From Solobacterium sp. (GTDB taxonomy: Bacteria; Bacillota_I; Bacilli_A; Erysipelotrichales; Erysipelotrichaceae): a DNA stretch of 9,393 nt. Position 1 is the stretch's first letter, and every line of letters begins with the position of its first letter. Under the pieces are notes generated by a model, which did not search any database, was not told where the DNA came from, and was given only the letters and a program-made list of their open reading frames with translations. Made by a program: the position numbers and the translations under genes. This document shows positions 1 to 9,393 of the stretch, in pieces. The stretch spans positions 1 to 9,393 of the forward strand of contig JAEEHG010000140.1 in NCBI GenBank assembly GCA_016280695.1, in the 5' to 3' direction.

Positions 1-152
1 GGGTCATGGTCCAGCCGGAAAAGATCAACGATGTCACCATGGTCAAGGTGGCGCATGATATCAAGGAAAAGATTGAGAATGAACTGACCTATCCGGGTCA
101 GATCAAGGTCACTCTGATCCGTGAGGTCCGGGTTCAGGAACTGGCTCAGTAG
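1..152 (+). CDS. rny: Ribonuclease Y, C-terminal end (partial)
   Basis: This is the last 49 codons of a gene that begins left of the window; the reading frame starts at base 3 and ends at TAG 150-152. The visible tail reads [10 protein letters not shown], then [15 protein letters not shown], then [15 protein letters not shown], ending VQELAQ. This closely resembles the end of Bacillus RNase Y (a '[14 protein letters not shown]' type ending). RNase Y is a membrane-anchored endoribonuclease that starts mRNA decay; its KH and HD domains and its membrane anchor would lie upstream and cannot be seen here. The identity is reinforced by the next gene, because rny (ymdA) is directly followed by ymdB in B. 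subtilis. Only two bases separate this stop from the ymdB start, so the two genes are very likely cotranscribed and translationally coupled. Confidence 0.88.
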
Positions 153-154
153 CC

Positions 155-928
155 ATGAAAATACTGTTTCTGGGTGACGTGACCGCCCGCAGCGGGCGGG
201 ATGCCGTCATCGCGGAACTGCCTGGGCTCAAACAGGCGTACGGGGCGGATTTCACCATCGTCAACGGTGAGAACGCTGCCCATGGCAAGGGGATCACGAC
301 GAAGATCTACCGCTCGCTGAAGGAAGCCGGGGCTGACCTGGTCACGCTGGGCAATCACGCTTTTTCCAAAAGTGAGATCATCACCGGCATGGACAGCTGT
401 CCCGACCTGATCCGGCCGGCCAATCTGGAACCTGCCGGGGCCGGTGCCTGCTGGGCGGTCAGAACCTGTCAGGGCAGACGCATCGCGGTGATCAACCTGC
501 TCGGGAATATCTTCATGGACTGTGCAACGGAGTCACCGTTTGCGGCCATGGACAGGATCCTGCCGGAAGTACAGGCTGATGTCATCCTGGTGGACCTGCA
601 TGCGGAAACCACCAGTGAGAAACAGCTGTTCTTCCACCGTTACCGGCAGCGGATCAGCGCCGTGATCGGCACGCATACCCATGTGCAGACCGCTGATGAG
701 TGTGTGCTGGGCGGCTGTGCCTTCATCAGTGATGTCGGCATGTGCGGACCATACGAGAGTATTATCGGCCGCAGCATTGAAGAAGTCATGGCCCGGATGA
801 TCGGCCAGGCCCAGACCCGGTTTACACCGGCAGAAGGACCGGCAATCATCTGCGGCGTTGTCATCGAGATCGATGACAATACCGGCCGGGCTCTCAGCAT
901 TGAGAGAATACAGAAACGTCCGTTCTGA
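155..928 (+). CDS. ymdB: YmdB-family metallophosphoesterase (TIGR00282)
   Basis: This 257-residue protein, close to the 264 of B. subtilis YmdB, belongs to the calcineurin-like phosphoesterases that hydrolyse cyclic nucleotides (2',3'-cAMP for YmdB). YmdB is reported to affect biofilm and late adaptive gene expression. The metal-binding residues are visible in order: Asp8 in LFLGDV, Glu39-Asn40 in NGENAAHGKG, Asn67-His68 in GNH, His149 in DLHAETTSEK, and His174 and His176 in GTHTHVQTAD. The set looks complete, so the enzyme should be active. No signal peptide or membrane segment is seen, so it is cytoplasmic. The ATG at 155 lies two bases after the rny stop with no strong ribosome binding site, which fits translational coupling. 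One small deviation is GNHAF at 66-70, where Bacillus YmdB has GNHTW. The gene ends inside a terminator hairpin. Confidence 0.93.
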   Translation: MKILFLGDVTARSGRDAVIAELPGLKQAYGADFTIVNGENAAHGKGITTKIYRSLKEAGADLVTLGNHAFSKSEIITGMDSCPDLIRPANLEPAGAGACWAVRTCQGRRIAVINLLGNIFMDCATESPFAAMDRILPEVQADVILVDLHAETTSEKQLFFHRYRQRISAVIGTHTHVQTADECVLGGCAFISDVGMCGPYESIIGRSIEEVMARMIGQAQTRFTPAEGPAIICGVVIEIDDNTGRALSIERIQKRPF

Positions 929-947
929 GGAACGGGCGTTTTCATTC
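914..947 (+). terminator. Terminator hairpin overlapping the ymdB stop
   Basis: A 12-pair stem is formed by 914-925 against 930-941, with one T-G wobble, a four-base loop (926-929) and a short T run (939-942) continuing into TTCATTCT. The loop contains the TGA stop codon of ymdB (926-928), so the left arm is coding. It should end the rny-ymdB transcript. The T run is short, so termination may be partial. Confidence 0.6.
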
Positions 948-1021
948 TGCCTGCCGGAAGCCCTTCTTCCAGTGCGGTTTCTTACCTGCGGCAAGACAGT
1001 GAAAATATGCATGGGATTACT

Positions 1022-1030
1022 TGATATAAT
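1022..1030 (+). promoter_or_regulatory. Extended -10 promoter for the glycosyltransferase gene
   Basis: TGATATAAT at 1022-1030 is a perfect extended -10 element (TGnTATAAT). There is no recognisable -35 box at the expected distance (1002-1007 reads AAAATA), which is tolerated in extended -10 promoters. Transcription would start near 1037, leaving a leader of about 26 bases before the preferred start at 1063. Confidence 0.6.
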
Positions 1031-1052
1031 AATTCTGGAAATGATGCAGTAC

Positions 1053-1056
1053 GGAG
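1053..1056 (+). promoter_or_regulatory. Ribosome binding site choosing the start at 1063
   Basis: GGAG at 1053-1056 directly abuts the ATG at 1057, too close for initiation there. It lies six bases before the in-frame ATG at 1063, which is a normal spacing, so 1063 is the better start. Confidence 0.6.
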
Positions 1057-1062
1057 ATGAAC

Positions 1063-2133
1063 ATGACCGCAGAAGAACTTAAGCCGGCGGCAGTGGAAGC
1101 TGGACACGAGGCAATGACACAGGAATTACCGGCAGATACTGCTGTTCCGGCAATATCAGTCATTGTCCCGGTATACCATGTGGAGAAGTATCTCCGCAGA
1201 GCTCTGGACAGTCTCCTGGACCAGACTTTTACTGATTTTGAACTGATCCTTGTGAATGACGGCGGAACCGAAGCAGAGGCAGCGATCTGCAGGGAATATG
1301 CGGATAAAGACAGCCGGATTGTCTATCTGTCCCAGACAAATCAGGGATTAAGTGCAGCCCGCAACCGCGGACTGGATGTCCACAGAGGCAGATGGATCAT
1401 GTTCGCTGACAGCGATGACTGGGTTAGAAATGATTTCTGTGAGCGGGCCCTGGCAAGCGTTCTGGCATCTGATGCAGATATGGGTATCTTCGATCTTGTT
1501 TATACTGAAAGTGATCATACGGCGGGGCATGTGCATCAGGTTAAACTGCCTGAGGGCCTGTACGACAGCGACACCATTCTCAGAGCAAGGCTGTGCGGAA
1601 AGGTTCAATGCTTTGTCTGGAACAAGATTTACCGTGAAGACCTGTGGGATGACATACGTTTCCCGCCCGGTGAATATTGGGAGGATGATGCTGTTATCCA
1701 TGAAGTCATTGATAAAGCAGGAAAAATCGCTGTCATACATGACATTCTCTATTACAAGCCACGCAGAAAGGACAGTATCACTTCTGCGGCAGCCGAGCAC
1801 AGGGAAGCTGCTTACTGGCAGTTTATCCAGCGCCGCAGACGCTGGGAATACCTGCAGCAGAACCACCCTGAACTGCTTTCAATGGCTGCTGATGACATGG
1901 TCATTTCGACGATTAAATACGGCCGGGACTGTGTCCTTTACAACGATGATTCTGAGGGCTTTGAAAGGATACGCCGCTGGGCAGAAACAACACATATTCC
2001 GCGCAAAGAAGTCAAACTGCAGCATCGTATCCGGTATACTCTGCTCATCTGCAGTAAACCGCTGTTCGGACTTATGGAACGAATCGTCCGTTTCATGATA
2101 AAGCAAAAGCAGTCAGCTGAAAAAAGGACCTGA
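1063..2133 (+). CDS. Glycosyltransferase family 2 protein
   Basis: This 356-residue protein (from the ATG at 1063; 358 from 1057) transfers a sugar from a nucleotide-sugar donor to a cell-envelope acceptor, as is typical of family 2 enzymes. The GT-A fold begins at about residue 31 with ISVIVPVY. It continues with the donor-binding LVNDGG near 64-68, an NQGLSAARNRGLD segment near 93-105, and the DXD-type metal site DSDD at 116-119 in FADSDDW. Further on are WNKIYR near 186-191 and EYWEDD near 204-209, the acceptor-side acidic motif of this subgroup. About 28 residues precede the catalytic domain. The basic C-terminal helix near residues 325-350 could rest on the membrane; no true transmembrane span is seen. 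It has its own promoter. The donor and acceptor cannot be told from the sequence. Its base composition appears somewhat less GC-rich than its neighbours by eye, possibly reflecting transfer. Confidence 0.88.
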   Translation: MTAEELKPAAVEAGHEAMTQELPADTAVPAISVIVPVYHVEKYLRRALDSLLDQTFTDFELILVNDGGTEAEAAICREYADKDSRIVYLSQTNQGLSAARNRGLDVHRGRWIMFADSDDWVRNDFCERALASVLASDADMGIFDLVYTESDHTAGHVHQVKLPEGLYDSDTILRARLCGKVQCFVWNKIYREDLWDDIRFPPGEYWEDDAVIHEVIDKAGKIAVIHDILYYKPRRKDSITSAAAEHREAAYWQFIQRRRRWEYLQQNHPELLSMAADDMVISTIKYGRDCVLYNDDSEGFERIRRWAETTHIPRKEVKLQHRIRYTLLICSKPLFGLMERIVRFMIKQKQSAEKRT

Positions 2134-2180
2134 CGATGCAGCTGAACAAAGCAGGCGTATTATGAGAAGCTTGATGGCAT

Positions 2181-2232
2181 AAACCGCGTGAGGACGGCAG
2201 AATCCTGTGGTGTCAGGAAGCCGGCGCGGTTT
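2181..2232 (+). promoter_or_regulatory. Structured RNA leader before the phosphatase gene
   Basis: Three nested stems can be drawn. They are AAACCGCG (2181-2188) with CGCGGTTT (2225-2232), CGGC (2195-2198) with GCCG (2220-2223), and TCCTG (2203-2207) with CAGGA (2214-2218). The asymmetric internal loops are TGAGGA against G and AGAA against A. The structure ends two bases before the ribosome binding site of the next gene and lacks a following T run, so it is not a simple terminator. It matches no riboswitch class I can name. A role in translation control or mRNA stability is inference. Confidence 0.45.
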
Positions 2233-2234
2233 CA

Positions 2235-2242
2235 GGAGAAGG
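2235..2242 (+). promoter_or_regulatory. Ribosome binding site fixing the phosphatase start at 2245
   Basis: GGAGAAGG lies directly before the ATG at 2245 (two bases after its last G). Its GGAG core is six bases before the ATG. It begins just after the leader hairpin, so folding of that hairpin could affect access to it. Confidence 0.6.
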
Positions 2243-2244
2243 AA

Positions 2245-2703
2245 ATGGTGAGAATACTGTTTGTCTGCTGGGGCAATATCTGCCGCAGCCCGATGGCGGA
2301 ATACATCATGAAATATCTGGCTGAACAGGCGGGTCTTTCGGGTGTCTTTGCGATTGATTCGGCAGGCGTATCCGCAGAAGAAACAGGGAATCCCGTCTAT
2401 CCGCCGGCCCGCCGGATCCTGCGCGCCCACGGCATCCCGTACGGGGATCACCGGGCCCGGCAGATGACCCGGGCGGACTATGACAGTTATGATCTGCTGA
2501 TCGGCATGGATACGGTGAATATTGCCCGGATGAAATGCATCTGCGGCGGTGACCCGGAGCACAGGATCCGGCTGCTGATGGACTATACAGACCGGCCGGG
2601 CGATGTCAGTGACCCGTGGTACACCGGTGATTTTGAAACGGCATACCGGGATATCCTGGCCGGCTGCACCGGCCTGATGGCAGAAACAGAACAGGAGAGA
2701 TGA
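2245..2703 (+). CDS. Low-molecular-weight protein tyrosine phosphatase
   Basis: This 152-residue protein is the usual size for the family and dephosphorylates phosphotyrosine in cytoplasmic proteins. The catalytic P-loop is C8-WGNIC-R14-S15 (CX5R), with Cys8 the nucleophile and Arg14 the phosphate binder. The general acid is Asp123 in DPWYTGDF. A family-typical GNPVYPPARR segment lies near 48-57. The residue after Asn in the P-loop is Ile12. As I recall, arginine phosphatases of the YwlE type have Thr there, so tyrosine specificity is favoured. The ATG at 2245 was chosen because it has a good ribosome binding site and starts at the beta strand preceding the P-loop; an in-frame GTG at 2188 would add 19 poorly matching residues that lie in the leader hairpin. 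Upstream is a glycosyltransferase gene, and such phosphatases often regulate exopolysaccharide synthesis. Downstream are a redox-type protein and a ribosomal GTPase, so its target is open. Confidence 0.92.
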   Translation: MVRILFVCWGNICRSPMAEYIMKYLAEQAGLSGVFAIDSAGVSAEETGNPVYPPARRILRAHGIPYGDHRARQMTRADYDSYDLLIGMDTVNIARMKCICGGDPEHRIRLLMDYTDRPGDVSDPWYTGDFETAYRDILAGCTGLMAETEQER

Positions 2704-2707
2704 ACAA

Positions 2708-3175
2708 ATGACAGAACAGTATATTCGTGAGTTTATCGCGCATGAGGAAAGCCTTCCGGCAGAAGAGCGTCCTTTTTACCATATGAACTGTGCCGAAAAC
2801 CTGCTGCGCTCCGCCGCCTGGCAGTATGACCTGGATGTGCCGGAGGAGATGTTTCGGATTGTCATCCCGTACGGGGCAGGAATGCAGACGCAGAATACCT
2901 GCGGCGCGCTGCTCGGGGCGCTGGGGGCCATCGGCCTGCTGTACAGCGAAGAAAAACCGTCAAAGGATCTGAAGATGAAAGCGGCCGTACGGGCATATGT
3001 GCGCCGCTTCCAGGATGAGTTCGGCAGTCTTGCCTGCGCGGCAATCAAACCGGCATTCCAGGATGAACGCCGGACCTGTACGCCGGTCAAGGTCAGAGCC
3101 GGCCAGCTCCTGGATGAGGTCGCTGCGGATATCGATGTGATCTATGCCGATTATCTGAAGGAAACAGGACAATGA
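2708..3175 (+). CDS. C_GCAxxG_C_C family putative redox protein
   Basis: This 155-residue cytoplasmic protein matches the family named for its spaced cysteines (TIGR01909/PF09719, putative redox-active protein). The four cysteines are Cys28 in MNCAENLL, Cys65 in TCGALLGALGAIGL, Cys110 in FGSLAC and Cys124 in RTCTPVK. The glycine-rich stretch before Cys65 (PYGAGMQTQN) and the FQDEFGSLAC segment are also typical. The second motif is CGALLG, a variant of the canonical GCAxxG. The biochemical function of the family is not established; metal or cluster binding and thiol redox chemistry are proposed from the cysteines. It starts five bases after the phosphatase stop, with GGAGAG at 2694-2699 as ribosome binding site. 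Its TGA overlaps the ATG of the next gene by four bases (ATGA at 3172-3175), which implies translational coupling with the GTPase fusion. Confidence 0.78.
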   Translation: MTEQYIREFIAHEESLPAEERPFYHMNCAENLLRSAAWQYDLDVPEEMFRIVIPYGAGMQTQNTCGALLGALGAIGLLYSEEKPSKDLKMKAAVRAYVRRFQDEFGSLACAAIKPAFQDERRTCTPVKVRAGQLLDEVAADIDVIYADYLKETGQ

Positions 3176-5673
3176 GGAAAAAAACTGTCATCGGTATCCT
3201 GGCCCACGTCGATGCCGGCAAAACCACCTGCATTGAAAGCATGCTGTTCAACTCCCGGCAGATCCGGAAGATGGGCCGCGTGGATCACCGCGACGCGCTG
3301 CTGGACTACGACGAAAACGAGCGCAGCCACGGGATTACGATCTATGCCAAGGAAGCCTACCTGCCATGGCAGGATACGGACATCTACGTCATCGACACCC
3401 CGGGGCATGTGGACTTTTCCAGTGAGATGGAACGCAGCCTGCAGGTGCTGGACCTGGCCGTCATCCTGATCAATGCCCAGGATGGTGTGCAGAGCCACAC
3501 CAGGACCATCTGGCGGTGTCTGGAACAGTACCATGTGCCGGCCCTGATCTTCATCAACAAGATGGATATCAGCTACCGTTCTGCGGAGGAACTGCTGGCT
3601 GACCTGCGGCAGCACTGCAGTGAAGACTGTATTGATTTCAGCGCGGCCGACCGGCTGGAACGGCTGGCCATGGTCAGTGACGACATGCTCAATGCCTTTA
3701 TGGAAACCGGCACGGTCAGTGATGACATGATCCGCCAGGCGGTATCCCAGCGGCTTTGTTTCCCGGTGCTTTCCGGCTCGGCCCTGAAAAACCAGGGGAT
3801 CAGCGAACTGCTGGACCTGATTGTCCGCTGTGCCCCGCAGAAGGAATATCCCGATATCTTCGGGGCCCGGGTCTATAAGATCTCCACGGATCCGGAAGGC
3901 AACCGGCTGACCCATATGAAGATTACCGGCGGGGTCCTGAGTGCCCGCCAGCGCATCAATGAACAGGAAAAAGCGGACCAGATCCGGATCTACAGCGGGC
4001 CGGAGTACCGCATGGTGCAGCAGGCCGAAGCCGGCATGATCTGTGCTGTCAAGGGCCTCGCCAGCGTGGAAACCGGCCAGGGCCTGGGATATGAGGAAAA
4101 CCGCACCCGGCCGCTCCTGCAGGCCTGCATGGACTACGAGCTGCTGGTGCCGGAAGGAACCGACATGCTCAGGCTGACCGAAACCTGCCGGCGGATCGCC
4201 GACGAGGATCCGCAGCTGATGCTGACAATCGATCCGGTGACCCGGAATATCCATATCCGCATCATGGGTGAAATGCAGAAAGAGATCCTCGAAGACCGGA
4301 TCCGGCAGGCCTGCGGGGTTTCCGTGGGTTTCAGTTCCGGCGGGATTCTCTACCAGGAAACCATTGCGGCCCCGGTGATCGGTGTCGGCCACTTTGAGCC
4401 GCTGCGCCATTATGCGGAAGTCGTGCTGAAGCTCAGCCCGCTGCTGCGGGGGCGTGGGCTGCTGATCGACTCGGAATGCCCGGTTGACAATCTGTCTCTG
4501 AGCTGGCAGAAATCCATATTCACCAGCCTGCGGATGAGTGAACTGCCCGGGATCCTGACCGGCTCACCGTTAACGGATATGCGTATAACTATTCTCAACG
4601 GCCGGGCCCATCCCAAACATACCGAAGGGGGAGACTTCCGCGAGGCGGCCCTGCGGGCAGTCCGCATGGGGCTGATGAAGGCCGGCGGGGTGCTGCTGGA
4701 GCCGATGGTCAGCTATACCGTTACCCTGCCGCAGGAATACCTGAGCCGGGCCCTCTATGACCTGGAACAGCATCAGGCTTCCGTGCAGATCAGGGAAGCG
4801 GGAGAGGGCCAGTCTGTCATCAGCGGGCGGGGACCGCTGCGGCTCATGCGCAATTACCAGCAGGACGTGACGTCCTATACCCGCGGCCGCGGCACCTATG
4901 AAGCAGTACCGGACGGCTATGCGGAAACGGCCGAACAGGAAGCCCTGGTGACAGCCGGCGGCTATGATCCCGAGCGGGACCTGGCGCATCCGTCAGCCTC
5001 GGTATTCTGCGAACACGGCAGCGGCTTTGCCGTTCCGTGGTATGAGGTCGAAGACCACATGCACCTGGAACTGCAGAAGGAGACGAACAATACAGCCTAC
5101 CAGCACCGCCGGTACCAGGTCAGCGCCGCAGACCTTAACCGGTTGAATGACATGGCCGGGGGGAAGAACCGGAAGGAAGACACCTATATCCGTGATCCCA
5201 GGAAACCGCTGAGCAGCGACCCGGTCCGCATCAAGGTCCGCGATGAACTGCCCACCTGCATGATTATTGACGGCTACAACATGATCTACGGCTGGGACAG
5301 CATGAAAGCCATGGCGGAAATCGATATCACCACAGCCCGGGAGAAACTGATCGATGAACTGTTCAGCTACCAGGCCTATCTGGGGCACCGCATGATCCTG
5401 GTGTTTGACGGCTACCGGCGGCCGGACAACTACGGTACTTCCTACCGCCGCGGCAAGGACATGAAGATTGTCTATACCCGCACCAATCAGACCGCGGACC
5501 AGTATATCGAGGAGATTACCAGCGAGATGAAGAAGAAGTACAACCTGATCGTGGTTACTTCGGACAACCTGATCCAGAACGCCGTGTTTGCCCAGGGTGC
5601 CATGCGCATGTCGGCCCGCGAGCTGGAGAACCAGATCCGTTTCCGGCGCGGGCAGGGCAGCTACAGCATCTGA
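3172..5673 (+). CDS. TetM/EF-G-like ribosomal GTPase fused to YacP/Rae1-like NYN nuclease
   Basis: This 833-residue protein joins a full-length translation GTPase to a C-terminal nuclease domain. The G motifs are AHVDAGKTT (11-19), the switch I motif RSHGITI (51-57, His53 where TetM and EF-G have Arg), DTPGH (75-79), NKMD (129-132) and SGSALKN near 201-207. Domains II-V follow to about residue 590, with TetM-like LMKAGGVLLEP and LPQEYLSRALYD. TetM itself is about 639 residues. A linker of about 100 residues contains SVFCEHGSGFAVPW (610-623). From about 696 comes a NYN domain like B. subtilis YacP/Rae1. It has Asp700 in IIDGYNMI, Asp746 in VFDGYR, TNQTADQYIE (771-780), TSDNLIQ (796-802) and QGAMRMSARELENQI. 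The basic tail of Rae1 is shortened. Rae1 cuts mRNA in the ribosomal A site, so a GTP-driven ribosome-directed nuclease is inferred. The tetracycline-displacing loop is not conserved. The gene overlaps the preceding one by four bases. Confidence 0.87.
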   Translation: MRKKTVIGILAHVDAGKTTCIESMLFNSRQIRKMGRVDHRDALLDYDENERSHGITIYAKEAYLPWQDTDIYVIDTPGHVDFSSEMERSLQVLDLAVILINAQDGVQSHTRTIWRCLEQYHVPALIFINKMDISYRSAEELLADLRQHCSEDCIDFSAADRLERLAMVSDDMLNAFMETGTVSDDMIRQAVSQRLCFPVLSGSALKNQGISELLDLIVRCAPQKEYPDIFGARVYKISTDPEGNRLTHMKITGGVLSARQRINEQEKADQIRIYSGPEYRMVQQAEAGMICAVKGLASVETGQGLGYEENRTRPLLQACMDYELLVPEGTDMLRLTETCRRIADEDPQLMLTIDPVTRNIHIRIMGEMQKEILEDRIRQACGVSVGFSSGGILYQETIAAPVIGVGHFEPLRHYAEVVLKLSPLLRGRGLLIDSECPVDNLSLSWQKSIFTSLRMSELPGILTGSPLTDMRITILNGRAHPKHTEGGDFREAALRAVRMGLMKAGGVLLEPMVSYTVTLPQEYLSRALYDLEQHQASVQIREAGEGQSVISGRGPLRLMRNYQQDVTSYTRGRGTYEAVPDGYAETAEQEALVTAGGYDPERDLAHPSASVFCEHGSGFAVPWYEVEDHMHLELQKETNNTAYQHRRYQVSAADLNRLNDMAGGKNRKEDTYIRDPRKPLSSDPVRIKVRDELPTCMIIDGYNMIYGWDSMKAMAEIDITTAREKLIDELFSYQAYLGHRMILVFDGYRRPDNYGTSYRRGKDMKIVYTRTNQTADQYIEEITSEMKKKYNLIVVTSDNLIQNAVFAQGAMRMSARELENQIRFRRGQGSYSI

Positions 5674-5714
5674 ACAGGCACATGTATGTTAATATTTTTA
5701 ATCGCCTGAGATTG

Positions 5715-5743
5715 TTGAAGTGTAAAAACGCGGATGATATAAT
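5715..5743 (+). promoter_or_regulatory. Sigma-A type promoter of the ferredoxin gene
   Basis: TTGAAG (5715-5720), a 17-base spacer and TATAAT (5738-5743) give a near-consensus promoter, further strengthened by an extended TGA just before the -10. Transcription would start near 5750. That would put the AGGAGG ribosome binding site (5751-5756) at the very 5' end of the mRNA. Confidence 0.8.
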
Positions 5744-5767
5744 TTGTGACAGGAGGTAATTACCATT

Positions 5768-5944
5768 ATGCCAGTAACAGTTGATAAGGAACTCTGCATC
5801 GGTTGCGGAGCCTGTGTAGGAGTTTGCCCGGTAGGCGCTCTGGAACTCGACGACGAGGGAAAGTCCCAGTGCAATGAGGACCTGTGCATCGATTGCCAGT
5901 CTTGTGTAGGTTCCTGCCCGGTAGAAGCTATCGCAGCGAAGTAA
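5768..5944 (+). CDS. 2[4Fe-4S] ferredoxin
   Basis: This 58-residue electron carrier has the two CxxCxxCxxxCP motifs of a clostridial-type ferredoxin. They are Cys10, Cys13, Cys16 and Cys20 followed by Pro, and Cys40, Cys43, Cys46 and Cys50 followed by Pro. Each cluster is bound by three cysteines of one motif and the last cysteine of the other. The protein is small, acidic and cytoplasmic, and would pass low-potential electrons between enzymes such as pyruvate:ferredoxin oxidoreductase and hydrogenase in an anaerobe. A ninth cysteine, Cys35, lies between the motifs and is not needed for cluster binding. The ATG at 5768 follows AGGAGG by eleven bases, slightly long; no closer in-frame start exists. 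The gene has its own strong promoter and terminator, so it is a single-gene unit, probably well expressed. Confidence 0.95.
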   Translation: MPVTVDKELCIGCGACVGVCPVGALELDDEGKSQCNEDLCIDCQSCVGSCPVEAIAAK

Positions 5945-5954
5945 AAAAACGCAG

Positions 5955-5985
5955 AAAACCGTCCTTGATCAGGGCGGTTTTTTGT
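5955..5985 (+). terminator. Rho-independent terminator of the ferredoxin gene
   Basis: An 11-pair stem, AAAACCGTCCT (5955-5965) with AGGGCGGTTTT (5971-5981), contains one T-G wobble and closes a five-base loop. The T run covers 5978-5983. It lies eleven bases after the ferredoxin stop and also isolates the ABC importer operon from upstream transcription. Confidence 0.9.
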
Positions 5986-6022
5986 TGTCCGGGCTTGGGC
6001 GGTGTTATGGCGTAATCGTTTC

Positions 6023-6036
6023 CGAAAGCGTTTACA
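6023..6036 (-). promoter_or_regulatory. cre-like CcpA operator over the importer promoter
   Basis: Read on the minus strand the site is TGTAAACGCTTTCG, which fits 13 of 14 positions of the consensus TGWAARCGYTWNCW. It overlaps the -35 box (6031-6036), so bound CcpA would be expected to block transcription when preferred sugars are present. A weaker overlapping match on the plus strand (6011-6024, 11 of 14 positions) lies just upstream. Confidence 0.65.
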
Positions 6037-6059
6037 CTGCTCTCGAAGAGGACTATAAT
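6031..6059 (+). promoter_or_regulatory. Sigma-A type promoter of the ABC importer operon
   Basis: TTTACA (6031-6036), a 17-base spacer and TATAAT (6054-6059) form a near-consensus promoter. Transcription would start near 6066, about 32 bases before the GTG start at 6098. The -35 box is inside the cre-like site. Confidence 0.82.
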
Positions 6060-6097
6060 AATTGCAAAGGTTTCATAAATAACAGGAGGGAAAGATT

Positions 6098-7195
6098 GTG
6101 AAAAAACTGATGAAACTGTTCCTTGCCGGATCACTGGCATTTGGAATGGCCGCCTGCAGTTCCGGCGGCAACTCCGGCGGCGGTACTTCGGATGATGAAT
6201 CCGAACTGGTAAAGGCTGCCAAGGAAGAAGGCGAACTGGTTGTTTACGGTTCCTGCGAAGAAGAATATCTGACGGCGGCAGCCGAGCATTTCGAGGAACT
6301 CTATGGGATTCACGTGACGGCACAGAGACTGTCCACCGGTGAAGTCCAGGCCAAGATTGAAGAAGAGAAGGGCAATCCTTCCGGTGACGTCTGGTTCGGC
6401 GGCACCACCGATCCGTACAACATTGCGGCATCCAAGGGCCTGCTCGAAGCTTATGAGGCAGAAAACGCATCTCATCTGATCAGCCCTGCTTACCGTGACA
6501 AGGACGGCTACTGGTATGGTATTTACAAGGGCATCCTGGGCTTCATGGTCAATAAGGATGAACTGGCCCGTATGGGTATTGACAGACCGGAAGACTGGGC
6601 TGATCTGCTCGATCCGAAGTACAAGGGTCTGATCTGGCTGTCCAACTATAATACTGCCGGCACAGCCAAGCTGGTCATCAACACCATGATCCAGAAGTAC
6701 GGTCACGATGAAGGCATTCAGTACCTGGTTGACCTTGACAAGAATGTCCAGGTTTACACCAAGTCCGGCTCTGGCCCGTCCAAGAATGTCGGCACGGGTG
6801 AGTGTGTGGTCGGCATCGGCTTCCTGCATGACGGCATTACCCAGATCGTTGACAACGGCTACGGAAACGTCGAACTGGTGATCCCGAGCAGCGGTACATC
6901 GTTTGAAATCGGCGCTACAGCCATCTTCGCCGGTGCCAAGCATCCAAATGCCGCCAAGCTGTGGATTGAATACGCGCTGTCTCCGGAATGTGTCGAACTG
7001 GCAGCCCAGCATGGTTCCTATCAGTTCCTGGTCATCGACAACGCCAAGCAGCCGGAAGTCGCGGATGAATTCGGTCTCGATCCGAACAACGTCATGGACT
7101 ATGACTTCGAAGATGCCAAGGCCAACACCGAAGCATACATCGCCGATGTCATGAATGCCCTGGGCGGCGGCGACGACAGATTCAAGACAGAATAA
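6098..7195 (+). CDS. ABC importer solute-binding lipoprotein, AfuA/FbpA-like
   Basis: This 365-residue protein captures the substrate outside the cell and delivers it to the permease encoded next. Residues 1-20 are a lipoprotein signal ending in the lipobox GMAAC, with Cys20 the lipid anchor; a Ser/Gly-rich tether (21-31) follows. The mature part resembles the periplasmic-binding group with GDVWFGGTTDPY near 96-107, LLDPKYKG near 170-177, and IGFLHDG (240-246). The Tyr-Tyr iron ligands of classical FbpA are not seen. Instead His244-Asp245 and Glu270 (TSFEIGA) sit where, as I recall, AfuA uses His, Asp and Glu to bind sugar phosphates; this alignment is from memory and unverified. Together with the cre-like promoter site this favours a sugar-phosphate or other carbon substrate over iron, but neither is proven. 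The start is GTG, with AGGAGGG (6084-6090) seven bases upstream. Confidence 0.85.
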   Translation: MKKLMKLFLAGSLAFGMAACSSGGNSGGGTSDDESELVKAAKEEGELVVYGSCEEEYLTAAAEHFEELYGIHVTAQRLSTGEVQAKIEEEKGNPSGDVWFGGTTDPYNIAASKGLLEAYEAENASHLISPAYRDKDGYWYGIYKGILGFMVNKDELARMGIDRPEDWADLLDPKYKGLIWLSNYNTAGTAKLVINTMIQKYGHDEGIQYLVDLDKNVQVYTKSGSGPSKNVGTGECVVGIGFLHDGITQIVDNGYGNVELVIPSSGTSFEIGATAIFAGAKHPNAAKLWIEYALSPECVELAAQHGSYQFLVIDNAKQPEVADEFGLDPNNVMDYDFEDAKANTEAYIADVMNALGGGDDRFKTE

Positions 7196-7214
7196 CAACT
7201 GAACAGAACAAGAC

Positions 7215-7250
7215 AATACCGGGCGGATTCCGTGTCCGTCCGGTATTTTC
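7215..7250 (+). terminator. Intergenic hairpin between binding protein and permease genes
   Basis: A 13-pair stem is formed by 7215-7227 against 7235-7247, with one G-T wobble and a seven-base loop, followed by a short T run (7246-7249). Placed just after the binding-protein gene, it probably works as a partial terminator or a 3' stabiliser. Either would give more binding protein than permease, a common arrangement in ABC importer operons. Confidence 0.6.
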
Positions 7251-7279
7251 CTGACTGATCCATAGAGAGGAGGCTTAAT

Positions 7280-8989
7280 ATGGCGAGAAGTCAAAGCAGA
7301 GAACTCGAGCGCAAGAAGTTCTTTGCGGATCCCATCATGGTGACAACCATTGTTGTTCTGATTGTTTTCCTGACCCTGTTTATCCTGTATCCGCTGGCCA
7401 TCCTGCTGATTGACAGTGTGATTACCGGCGAAGGCATTTCCCTGAGTGTATTCCAGCGGGTCATGGGCATGCCAAGTTTCCGCAGGGCCATTACCAATAC
7501 CCTGAAAGTCGGTTTTCTGGTCGGTATCCTGTCGGCCCTGATCGGCCTGCTGTTTGCCTATGTGGAAGAATATGTCCAGCTCAAGACAAAGATGCTTGCC
7601 GGGCTGTTTAAAGTGATAAGCATGCTGCCGGTTGTCTCACCGCCGTTTGTACTGTCGCTGTCCATGATCATGCTGTTTGGCAAGGCCGGCATCATTACCC
7701 GTTATCTGCTGCATATCTATGACAATAACGTGTATGGCTTCTGGGGCATCGCGATCGTGCAGACACTGACGTTCTTCCCGGTCTGCTACATGATGATGAA
7801 AGGCCTGCTGCGGAATATTGACCCGTCTCTGGAAGAGGCAGCCCGGGATATGGGCGCATCACGGCTCAAGGTTTTCAATACTGTGACGCTGCCGCTGATT
7901 CTGCCGGGTCTCGGCAATGCATTCCTGGTGACGTTCATTGAGTCCATCGCGGATTTTGCCAACCCGATGATCATCGGCGGTTCCTATGATACGCTGGCAA
8001 CCTCAATTTATCTGCAGATTACCGGTGCGTATGACAAGCAGGGCGCTTCCGCCATGGCGGTCGTGCTTCTGGCTATTACGCTGATGATGTTCATCGTCCA
8101 GAAGTACTATCTGGAAGCCAAGAGCACTGCCACCCTGACCGGCAAGGCCAGCCGGCAGAGAATGATGATCACCGACAAGTCGGTCACCCGTCCGCTGACG
8201 GCTTTCTGCCTGCTTGTTTCCCTGTTTGTTGTCATGATGTATATCTGTGTGCCGCTGGGTGCGCTGTTCAAGACATGGGGCTATGACTTCCATCTGACAT
8301 TCAAGTGGTTCCAGATGGTCTTCACCAGATACAAGGGCTTCAAGGCCTTCAAGGATTCCTTCCTGCTGTCGCTGATTGCCTCGCCGATCACGGCGCTGCT
8401 GTCCATGATTATTTCCTACCTGGTTGTCAAGCGTTCGTTCCGGGCCAAGGGATTCATTGAAGCAGTATCCATGCTGGCAATGGCAGTCCCGGGCACGGTT
8501 CTCGGTGTCGGTTACATCCGCGGCTTCTCGGCCGGTGTATTCCGTTCCGGTTTCCTGCAGTCCCTGTACGGGACAGGAACGCTGCTGGTCATTGTCTTCA
8601 TCGTCCGCTCGCTGCCGACCGGTACCAGAAGCGGTATCTCGGCCCTGCGCCAGATTGACAAGAGTATCGAAGAATCTGCCTATGACATGGGCGCTGACAG
8701 TTTCCGGGTGTTCATGACGGTGACCCTGCCGCTGATCAAGGACAGTTTCCTGTCCGGCCTGGTTACGGCGTTTGTCCGCAGCATTACGGCGATTTCCGCC
8801 ATTATCCTGCTGGTAACACCGAAGTTCCTGCTGATTACCGTACAGATCAACGAGTTCGCCGAGAAAGGCTCTTACGGCATTGCCTGCGCCTTTGCGACAA
8901 TCCTGATCATCATTACATACGGTTCCGTCACCCTGATGAACCTGTTTATCAAGCACTTCGGCACCAGCCGTGAAATCAAGGAGGTATAA
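7280..8989 (+). CDS. ABC importer permease, two fused FbpB-type domains
   Basis: This 569-residue inner-membrane protein forms the channel of the importer. It contains two BPD_transp_1 permease halves in one chain, so a single copy can replace the usual dimer. Hydrophobic spans are evident near residues 20-45, 75-95, 112-133, 152-172, 210-232 and 257-274 in the first half. In the second half they lie near 306-328, 360-383, 394-412, 432-444, 490-515 and 532-555. Each half carries an EAA loop that contacts the ATPase: EEAARDMGASRLKVF (185-199) and EESAYDMGADSFRVF (464-478), each followed by TVTLPLI. This fused arrangement is typical of the FbpB/AfuB/ThiP group. The ATG at 7280 has AGGAGG (7268-7273) six bases upstream. 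The ATPase gene begins two bases after its stop, and its ribosome binding site lies in the last permease codons. Confidence 0.92.
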   Translation: MARSQSRELERKKFFADPIMVTTIVVLIVFLTLFILYPLAILLIDSVITGEGISLSVFQRVMGMPSFRRAITNTLKVGFLVGILSALIGLLFAYVEEYVQLKTKMLAGLFKVISMLPVVSPPFVLSLSMIMLFGKAGIITRYLLHIYDNNVYGFWGIAIVQTLTFFPVCYMMMKGLLRNIDPSLEEAARDMGASRLKVFNTVTLPLILPGLGNAFLVTFIESIADFANPMIIGGSYDTLATSIYLQITGAYDKQGASAMAVVLLAITLMMFIVQKYYLEAKSTATLTGKASRQRMMITDKSVTRPLTAFCLLVSLFVVMMYICVPLGALFKTWGYDFHLTFKWFQMVFTRYKGFKAFKDSFLLSLIASPITALLSMIISYLVVKRSFRAKGFIEAVSMLAMAVPGTVLGVGYIRGFSAGVFRSGFLQSLYGTGTLLVIVFIVRSLPTGTRSGISALRQIDKSIEESAYDMGADSFRVFMTVTLPLIKDSFLSGLVTAFVRSITAISAIILLVTPKFLLITVQINEFAEKGSYGIACAFATILIIITYGSVTLMNLFIKHFGTSREIKEV

Positions 8990-8991
8990 CA

Positions 8992-9393
8992 ATGGCTAAA
9001 GAGAAAAAAGGGGTTCGCCTTGAACATATATCGAAAATCTACCTGGATCCCAAGACAAAGAAAGAATTCTATGCCGTAAAGGATACAACCCTGGATATCG
9101 AACCGGGTACATTCGTCACCCTGCTCGGCCCGTCCGGCTGCGGCAAGACTACGACCCTGCGCATGATTGCCGGCTTTGAGAGCCCGGATGAAGGGGAGAT
9201 TTACCTCGGCGGGGAACCGATCAATGAACTGACCCCGAACAAGCGCGATACAGCCATGGTCTTCCAGAGCTACGCGCTGCTGCCGCACTACAATATCTAT
9301 GACAACGTCGCATATGGCCTGAAACTGCGGAAGATGAGTCCCGAGGTCATCAAAGAGAAGGTAACCAACATTCTGAAGCTGGTCGGCCTGGAA
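8992..9393 (+). CDS. ABC importer ATPase subunit (partial, N-terminal part)
   Basis: The first 134 codons of the ATP-binding subunit are present; the gene runs off the right edge. It powers import by the binding protein and permease encoded upstream. The Walker A motif is GPSGCGKTT (46-54), the Q-loop glutamine is Gln92 in VFQSYALLPH, and FESPDEGEI (62-70) is typical of the PotA/FbpC/UgpC type of importer ATPase. The LSGGQ signature, Walker B and any C-terminal TOBE domain lie beyond the window. The ATG at 8992 is preceded by AAGGAGG (8978-8984), seven bases away and inside the end of the permease gene. This indicates tight cotranslation. Confidence 0.93.
   Translation, partial: MAKEKKGVRLEHISKIYLDPKTKKEFYAVKDTTLDIEPGTFVTLLGPSGCGKTTTLRMIAGFESPDEGEIYLGGEPINELTPNKRDTAMVFQSYALLPHYNIYDNVAYGLKLRKMSPEVIKEKVTNILKLVGLE

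Follow-up and report, generated by a model that had tools for sequence, protein, structure and literature searches.

A translational GTPase fused to a Rae1-type nuclease in Clostridia and Erysipelotrichia, a probable replacement for free Rae1

We analyzed a stretch of 9,393 nucleotides from Solobacterium sp. (GenBank assembly GCA_016280695.1, contig JAEEHG010000140.1, positions 1 to 9,393; hereafter the window), in which a single gene encodes a translational GTPase joined to a nuclease domain of the Rae1 (YacP) type. The gene, at 3172-5673 on the forward strand, is one intact frame of 833 codons with an ATG start and zero internal stops. Pfam recognizes in it domains G to V and NYN_YacP, as anticipated by the original prediction, which had read a TetM-like GTPase and a Rae1/YacP NYN domain in one frame. 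Its parts, and the gene that overlaps its start, are as follows.

3172..5673, + strand: whole fusion gene (833 aa), translational GTPase (domains G, II, III, IV, V) plus NYN_YacP nuclease domain
3187..3837, + strand: GTPase (G) domain, with G1 VDAGKTT, G2 HGITI, G3 DTPGH and G4 NKMD (Pfam GTP_EFTU and motifs)
3865..4329, + strand: domains II and III, EF-G type (EF-G_D2, EFG_III and structural model)
4345..4683, + strand: domain IV (Pfam EFG_IV, residues 392-504)
4618..4635, + strand: domain IV tip loop, residues 483-488 (H-T-E-G-G-D), a family signature unlike that of Tet and EF-G
4690..4938, + strand: domain V (Pfam EFG_C, residues 507-589)
4969..5067, + strand: conserved SVFCxHGxGF...MHL module, end of the GTPase part
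5068..5259, + strand: linker of about 64 residues; predicted local distance difference test (pLDDT) score <50 at residues 637-650 and 663-689
5260..5640, + strand: NYN_YacP (Rae1-type) nuclease domain (Pfam, YacP structure match and model)
5269..5271, + strand: Asp700 codon, corresponding to D7 of B. subtilis YacP
5407..5409, + strand: Asp746 codon, corresponding to D53 of B. subtilis YacP
5497..5499, + strand: Asp776 codon, corresponding to D81 of B. subtilis YacP
5563..5565, + strand: Asp798 codon, corresponding to D104 of B. subtilis YacP
2708..3175, + strand: C_GCAxxG_C_C protein gene (context only), its stop overlapping the fusion start (ATGA)

The GTPase part has the features of EF2-family translational GTPases, namely motifs G1-G4 with DTPGH and a G-II-III(-IV-V) fold. 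Pfam GTP_EFTU matched residues 6-222 (6e-50) and EFG_III residues 330-386, and EF-G_D2 matched residues 232-303 at E 4.5e-05 with 23.9 bits, which is below its cut-off of 27. An AlphaFold model of the fusion reached a mean pLDDT of 88.4, and its body resembles EF-G and TetM in a structure search. The nuclease part (residues 697-823) matched NYN_YacP with an E of 1.1e-38 and 133.3 bits against a cut-off of 24.6, and matched in sequence the solved B. subtilis YacP structures 5mq8 and 5mq9 (E 1.2e-20 for 5mq8). The assignment of the NYN fold rests on sequence, because the GTPase body filled the structure-search matches.

The four aspartates singled out by the original prediction (D700, D746, D776, and D798) align with D7, D53, D81, and D104 of YacP and are kept as Asp in 70/70 full-length and 33/33 short relatives aligned. 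We take D7 and D81 of YacP to be the catalytic pair. The GTPase motifs G1-G4, also predicted to be intact, are present, and the 70 aligned full-length relatives show no variation at the core positions of G1, G3, and G4. A sequencing or assembly error joining two genes, a risk that had been named at the outset, was rejected: the same frame occurs in three other metagenome-assembled genomes (L002-L004) at 93-99% identity, and NYN lies inside long frames in more than 100 sampled genomes (37 in the sample of the window's phylum and 127 in the Clostridia sample). In one genome of the same genus (G263, locus L111) the GTPase (3943-6078) and NYN (6036-6515) occupy two overlapping frames, owing either to a genuine split or to an error in the sequence.

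The architecture itself is already known. Atkinson (2015) described a Tet-type GTPase fused to a YacP-like NYN domain in ten Clostridiales, filed it as Tet, suggested a resistance role, and proposed testing the rRNA RNase ability of such Tet-NYN fusions (PMC4342817). The window protein, a Tet/EF-G-type translational GTPase with a YacP-like NYN domain in the identical order, is a fusion of this kind, and the earlier statement that no functional description was known gives way to this printed account with its speculation on function. In contrast to that account, the family described here forms a separate clade with another tip motif, reaches Erysipelotrichia, includes a form lacking domains IV and V, and apparently replaces free YacP. 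Among the papers listed by our literature searches we found none later on the fusion, and the available portions of PMC7180214 are silent on it. Within the literature searched, the short form and the evidence for Rae1 replacement appear to be new.

The fusion and free YacP/Rae1 rarely occur together. We searched 393 genomes from the class of G431, a Lachnospiraceae genome and hence a member of Clostridia. NYN_YacP matched in 250 of them: 127 in frames of at least 800 aa (for most of these genomes, fusion status was assigned by frame length alone), 112 in frames of at most 230 aa, 10 in unclassified frames of 231-799 aa, and 1 below the cut-off. All 10 of the long frames tested also matched a domain-IV/linker profile in a frame of equal length. 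Only one genome (G723) carries both the fusion and an intact free copy, against 36.5 expected if the two were independent and phylogeny is left uncorrected. Extra NYN matches occurred in five genomes, being intact in G723, broken in G809, and weak and below the cut-off in G560, G614, and G647. Two of the 112 short frames (G649 and G812) may not be true free genes, since their profile match stops at position 146-149, the pattern seen in fused frames.

A similar picture emerges from the window's phylum, where 39 of 392 genomes have NYN_YacP over the cut-off. The match lies in frames of at least 800 aa in 37 of these, and the other two are a 615-codon short form (G095) and the split frame of G263. 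The 29 loci of the phylum search that were read (L082-L110) all align to the fusion, starting at residue 187-226 and ending at 820-830. Exactly one NYN_YacP match was present in each of the 50 genomes reached via relatives (50 of 80 loci). The original prediction had also asked whether the genome holds a separate yacP; a profile search, blind to far-decayed copies, found none in the window's genome (77% complete), where the single NYN_YacP match is the fusion gene.

Further support comes from the place that free yacP occupies. In both genomes read (G620 and G723), free yacP sits between rlmB and sigH; rlmB and sigH of G723 clear their NCBIfam cut-offs, and in G620 the sigma factor has sigma-70 Pfam domains and the gene before rlmB has an RNase III domain. 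The latter gene is presumably mrnC. The corresponding B. subtilis genes, yacO (rlmB) and rae1, lie side by side and are transcribed together (PMC6613710). We located rlmB in 30 fusion genomes unselected for slot content (29 Clostridia and the window's own) and found a same-strand sigH match after it in 20; in the other 10, neither sigH nor yacP was matched within the available 0.8-1.5 kb downstream of rlmB. Four of the 20 slots (G783, G537, G516, and G463) contain pieces of yacP on the right strand (tblastn, E 1e-3 or better), all with internal stops. A fifth slot, in G809, which was picked for its known remnant, holds a yacP piece that contains a stop and in which another residue stands for the Asp of the VVTSD motif. 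As a control, 60 mononucleotide shuffles of the slots gave 0 yacP matches.

In the window's genome the slot measures 39 bases, too few for such a search. There, rlmB (over its NCBIfam cut-off) is followed directly by a 212-codon frame that is not yacP; it matches sigH weakly (22.8% identity), has no Pfam match, and leaves yacP no room in the slot. The remnants elsewhere indicate that the free gene is decayed in several fusion-bearing genomes, and such decay is the strongest argument for the fusion doing Rae1's work.

A natural short form of the fusion also exists, with 55 protein clusters of 569-595 aa that contain GTP_EFTU and NYN and lack EFG_IV and EFG_C. As read from its sequence, the short form is G-II-III plus NYN, an RF3-like body with a nuclease, and a modeled representative resembles EF-G and RF3 over residues 1-372 in a structure search. 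A group of fast-evolving fusions of 809-835 aa (P0180-P0213) has no precomputed EFG_C match. Those of its members that were placed in the tree adjoin the short forms, and domain V may be decaying in this group.

The family also has relatives without NYN, with open frames of 624-729 codons; the 19 recovered end no more than about 10 residues past the SVFC...MHC module. In trees built by a quick method, they are the sister clade to the fusions. The trees suggest one gain of NYN and one loss, the latter in the megaplasmid form of Ligilactobacillus salivarius. The trees omit L141, whose G domain is incomplete, and L143; trees 2 and 3 also lack L044_691aa. In the NYN tree, one free NYN protein (L216, G648:C1:394740-395350) groups within the fused domains, and its genome has an NYN-less GTPase elsewhere; it is a candidate for a fusion that split apart again.

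Taking together the conserved residues of GTPase and nuclease, the exclusion, the decayed yacP, and the short form, all observed by comparison, we suggest that the fusion is probably a GTPase-delivered Rae1, whose GTPase would dock on stalled ribosomes and whose nuclease would cut the mRNA held there, and which likely replaces free Rae1. Its most likely history is that it took over Rae1's job. B. subtilis Rae1 is an A-site endoribonuclease (PMC6613710), and S1025 is a known target (PMC11780869). Rae1 shares with the fusion NYN_YacP and four Asp in like contexts (PDB 5mq8, 5mq9), and by this analogy ribosome-dependent mRNA cutting may be expected of the fusion. Whereas Rae1 is a free protein (181-residue PDB chains) encoded beside rlmB, the fusion ties the nuclease to a GTPase of its own at another locus. 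It likewise differs from EF-G, which translocates, and from RF3, which has no nuclease.

In the proposed mechanism, the G-II-III platform would dock at the factor-binding center, as in EF-G and RF3, and, judging from known families, nucleotide state or GTP hydrolysis would time the access of the nuclease. TetM and EF-G put domain IV into the A site. In the full form, the NYN domain would act in or near the A site after withdrawal of domain IV, or via the mRNA entrance, because domain IV would occupy the A site first; the linker of roughly 64 residues would be compatible with either route. In the short form, NYN would take the place of domain IV, and the conflict would vanish. The outcome would be mRNA decay at stalled or slow ribosomes. 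More tentatively, the whole GTPase branch could be a GTP-driven mRNA-cutting rescue factor that captured Rae1, displaced the free enzyme, and left debris beside rlmB in some genomes; one lineage would then have dropped the tRNA-mimicking domains IV and V, with the nuclease itself entering the A site. This is a possible history, which we hold with less than even confidence.

Several points weigh against the proposed replacement of Rae1. The literature yielded no biochemistry on any family member. In the full form, NYN and domain IV could not share the A site simultaneously, if domain IV enters, and the linker is disordered in the AlphaFold model, so that the position of the nuclease relative to the body is unfixed. 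G723 retains the fusion together with an intact free copy in the rlmB-sigH slot. The profile search found no NYN_YacP match in 143/393 Clostridia, the exclusion is partly shared ancestry, and 16 of the 20 unpicked slots have no recognizable yacP, which is absence and not decay. NYN-less GTPases occur in 21/112 genomes with free YacP and in 3/20 without YacP (24/132 tested); their persistence implies that the GTPase has work needing no tied nuclease. The same follows for L. salivarius, where NYN appears to have been lost while the GTPase was retained. Finally, the NYN-domain tree by itself fails to show one origin: a single fusion clade is not rejected (approximately unbiased test, p 0.494), but 3 changes are required on the free tree. 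We also considered a Rosetta-stone co-occurrence of free GTPase and free YacP, which the same counts (21/112 vs 3/20) leave unsupported.

Among other explanations, the fusion might be a ribosome or rRNA maturation factor, with the GTPase docking on assembling subunits and NYN trimming rRNA or tRNA precursors. Free yacP has as neighbors the 23S methylase gene rlmB and a gene with an RNase III domain; an efp defect is suppressed alike by loss of yacO (rlmB) and by loss of rae1 (PMC6613710); and an RNA-maturation proposal first made for NYN proteins is cited in PMC4342817. The fusion, however, lies away from the rlmB locus, and no neighbor family recurs in more than 7 of the 66 loci surveyed. Moreover, B. 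subtilis Rae1 is described as an A-site mRNA cutter (PMC6613710), and the many Clostridia with no NYN_YacP match would be odd for an rRNA step. We regard this explanation as unlikely.

A second explanation is the one put forward by Atkinson (2015), that of a tetracycline ribosomal protection protein with an RNase, in which domain IV would dislodge the drug and NYN, also serving resistance, would cleave rRNA or mRNA. Apart from the published suggestion itself (PMC4342817), this draws on the EF-G/TetM domain order, on tet_protect being the best NCBIfam profile for the window protein, and on database labels, several family members being filed as TetM/TetW/TetO/TetS family, as the original prediction had foreseen. 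The fusion indeed has in common with Tet(M), Tet(O), and TetB(P) a GTPase body of G, II, III, IV, and V (about 30% identity to Tet(M) and Tet(O)); these proteins lack NYN, have the tip SPxSTxADF where the fusion has HTxGGDF, and form a separate clade. The scores of the window protein also fall short, with 370.8 bits for tet_protect (cut-off 775) and 263.7 for the M_W model (cut-off 1100), whereas a Tet(M) control clears its own cut-off (1506 vs 1420).

In a tree of domains G-III (65 rows), the 52 family rows form one clade (100/98) that is sister to the resistance proteins (100/99) and not inside them. A tree that uses more columns and includes TetB(P) (83 rows; a quick method, short forms left out, and L175 labeled 'full' although NYN-less) places the six resistance-annotated proteins together (99) and the fusion family apart (100, G815 outlier excluded). 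The domain IV tip tells the same groups apart. SPxSTxAD is present in 6/6 resistance-annotated proteins, 0/47 full fusions, and 0/22 NYN-less relatives, and H[DE]VDSS is found in 7/7 EF-G. HTxG[GQ]D occurs in 46/47 full fusions, the exception being L113 with RTEGGD, and in 22/22 NYN-less relatives; across the 70-row full-length alignment it is the tip in 65/70, with SPxSTxAD in 0/70. The short form dispenses with domain IV, and in a plasmid collection only 2/1047 matching records span at least 80% of the query.

We therefore rejected a Tet of the resistance type on the sub-cut-off scores, the sister position, and the other domain-IV tip, and consider drug protection quite improbable as the role of the fusion. 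On the same grounds, the idea of the original prediction, a GTP-dependent mRNA-cutting factor, loses its extension to antibiotic-blocked ribosomes, while its Rae1-like core gains from the exclusion and the decayed yacP. The filing of the fusion under tetracycline resistance in databases is likely wrong.

Family members do occur on plasmids. The L. salivarius megaplasmids (L119 and L120; e.g., pMP118) carry a member that lacks NYN and bears the annotation of a TetM/TetW/TetO/TetS resistance protein; of the two, L119 scores below the curated resistance cut-offs, and both have the non-resistance tip motif. A 252-kb plasmid record of Agathobacter rectalis (L122, 3971-6772) holds a 933-aa fusion, which is thus extrachromosomal and has about 25 additional G-domain residues relative to Tet and EF-G profiles.

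A chance joining of two halves that function independently, the GTPase with its own task and NYN as a passenger Rae1, fits the long disordered linker, the NYN-less GTPases, and the L. salivarius form, and is nonetheless very doubtful. The two halves, each with its invariant sites, stay joined throughout Clostridia and Erysipelotrichia and even where domains IV and V are gone, and their joining accompanies the absence of the free gene.

The surroundings of the fusion vary. Our survey of 66 loci found no conserved gene partner, and the pairing with the C_GCAxxG_C_C gene was not found in it beyond the window's close relatives; the neighbors common to the window and L002-L004 are conserved at the genus level only. 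Downstream of the fusion, the window encodes a ferredoxin with two 4Fe-4S motifs (5768-5944), followed at 6098-9393 by genes for a solute-binding protein and a two-unit permease and by the first part of an ABC ATPase gene. At another locus (L044), an EF-G-like frame of 691 codons (1154-3226) with an unusual P-loop (GHGGNGKTS) and switch I KFSIS lies about 2.8 kb upstream of a fusion gene.

How bacteria choose stalled ribosomes for mRNA cutting is an open question, and the literature searched gave no account of how Rae1 is timed. Its natural joining to a translational GTPase points to a possible and testable timing device. The decayed yacP provides an independent argument from genome history that the fused and free forms share one job, and the short form is a minimal enzyme of two modules that would suit structural studies. 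Since several members are annotated as tetracycline resistance and those tested fall below the cut-offs, such annotations would inflate resistance counts for gut commensals.

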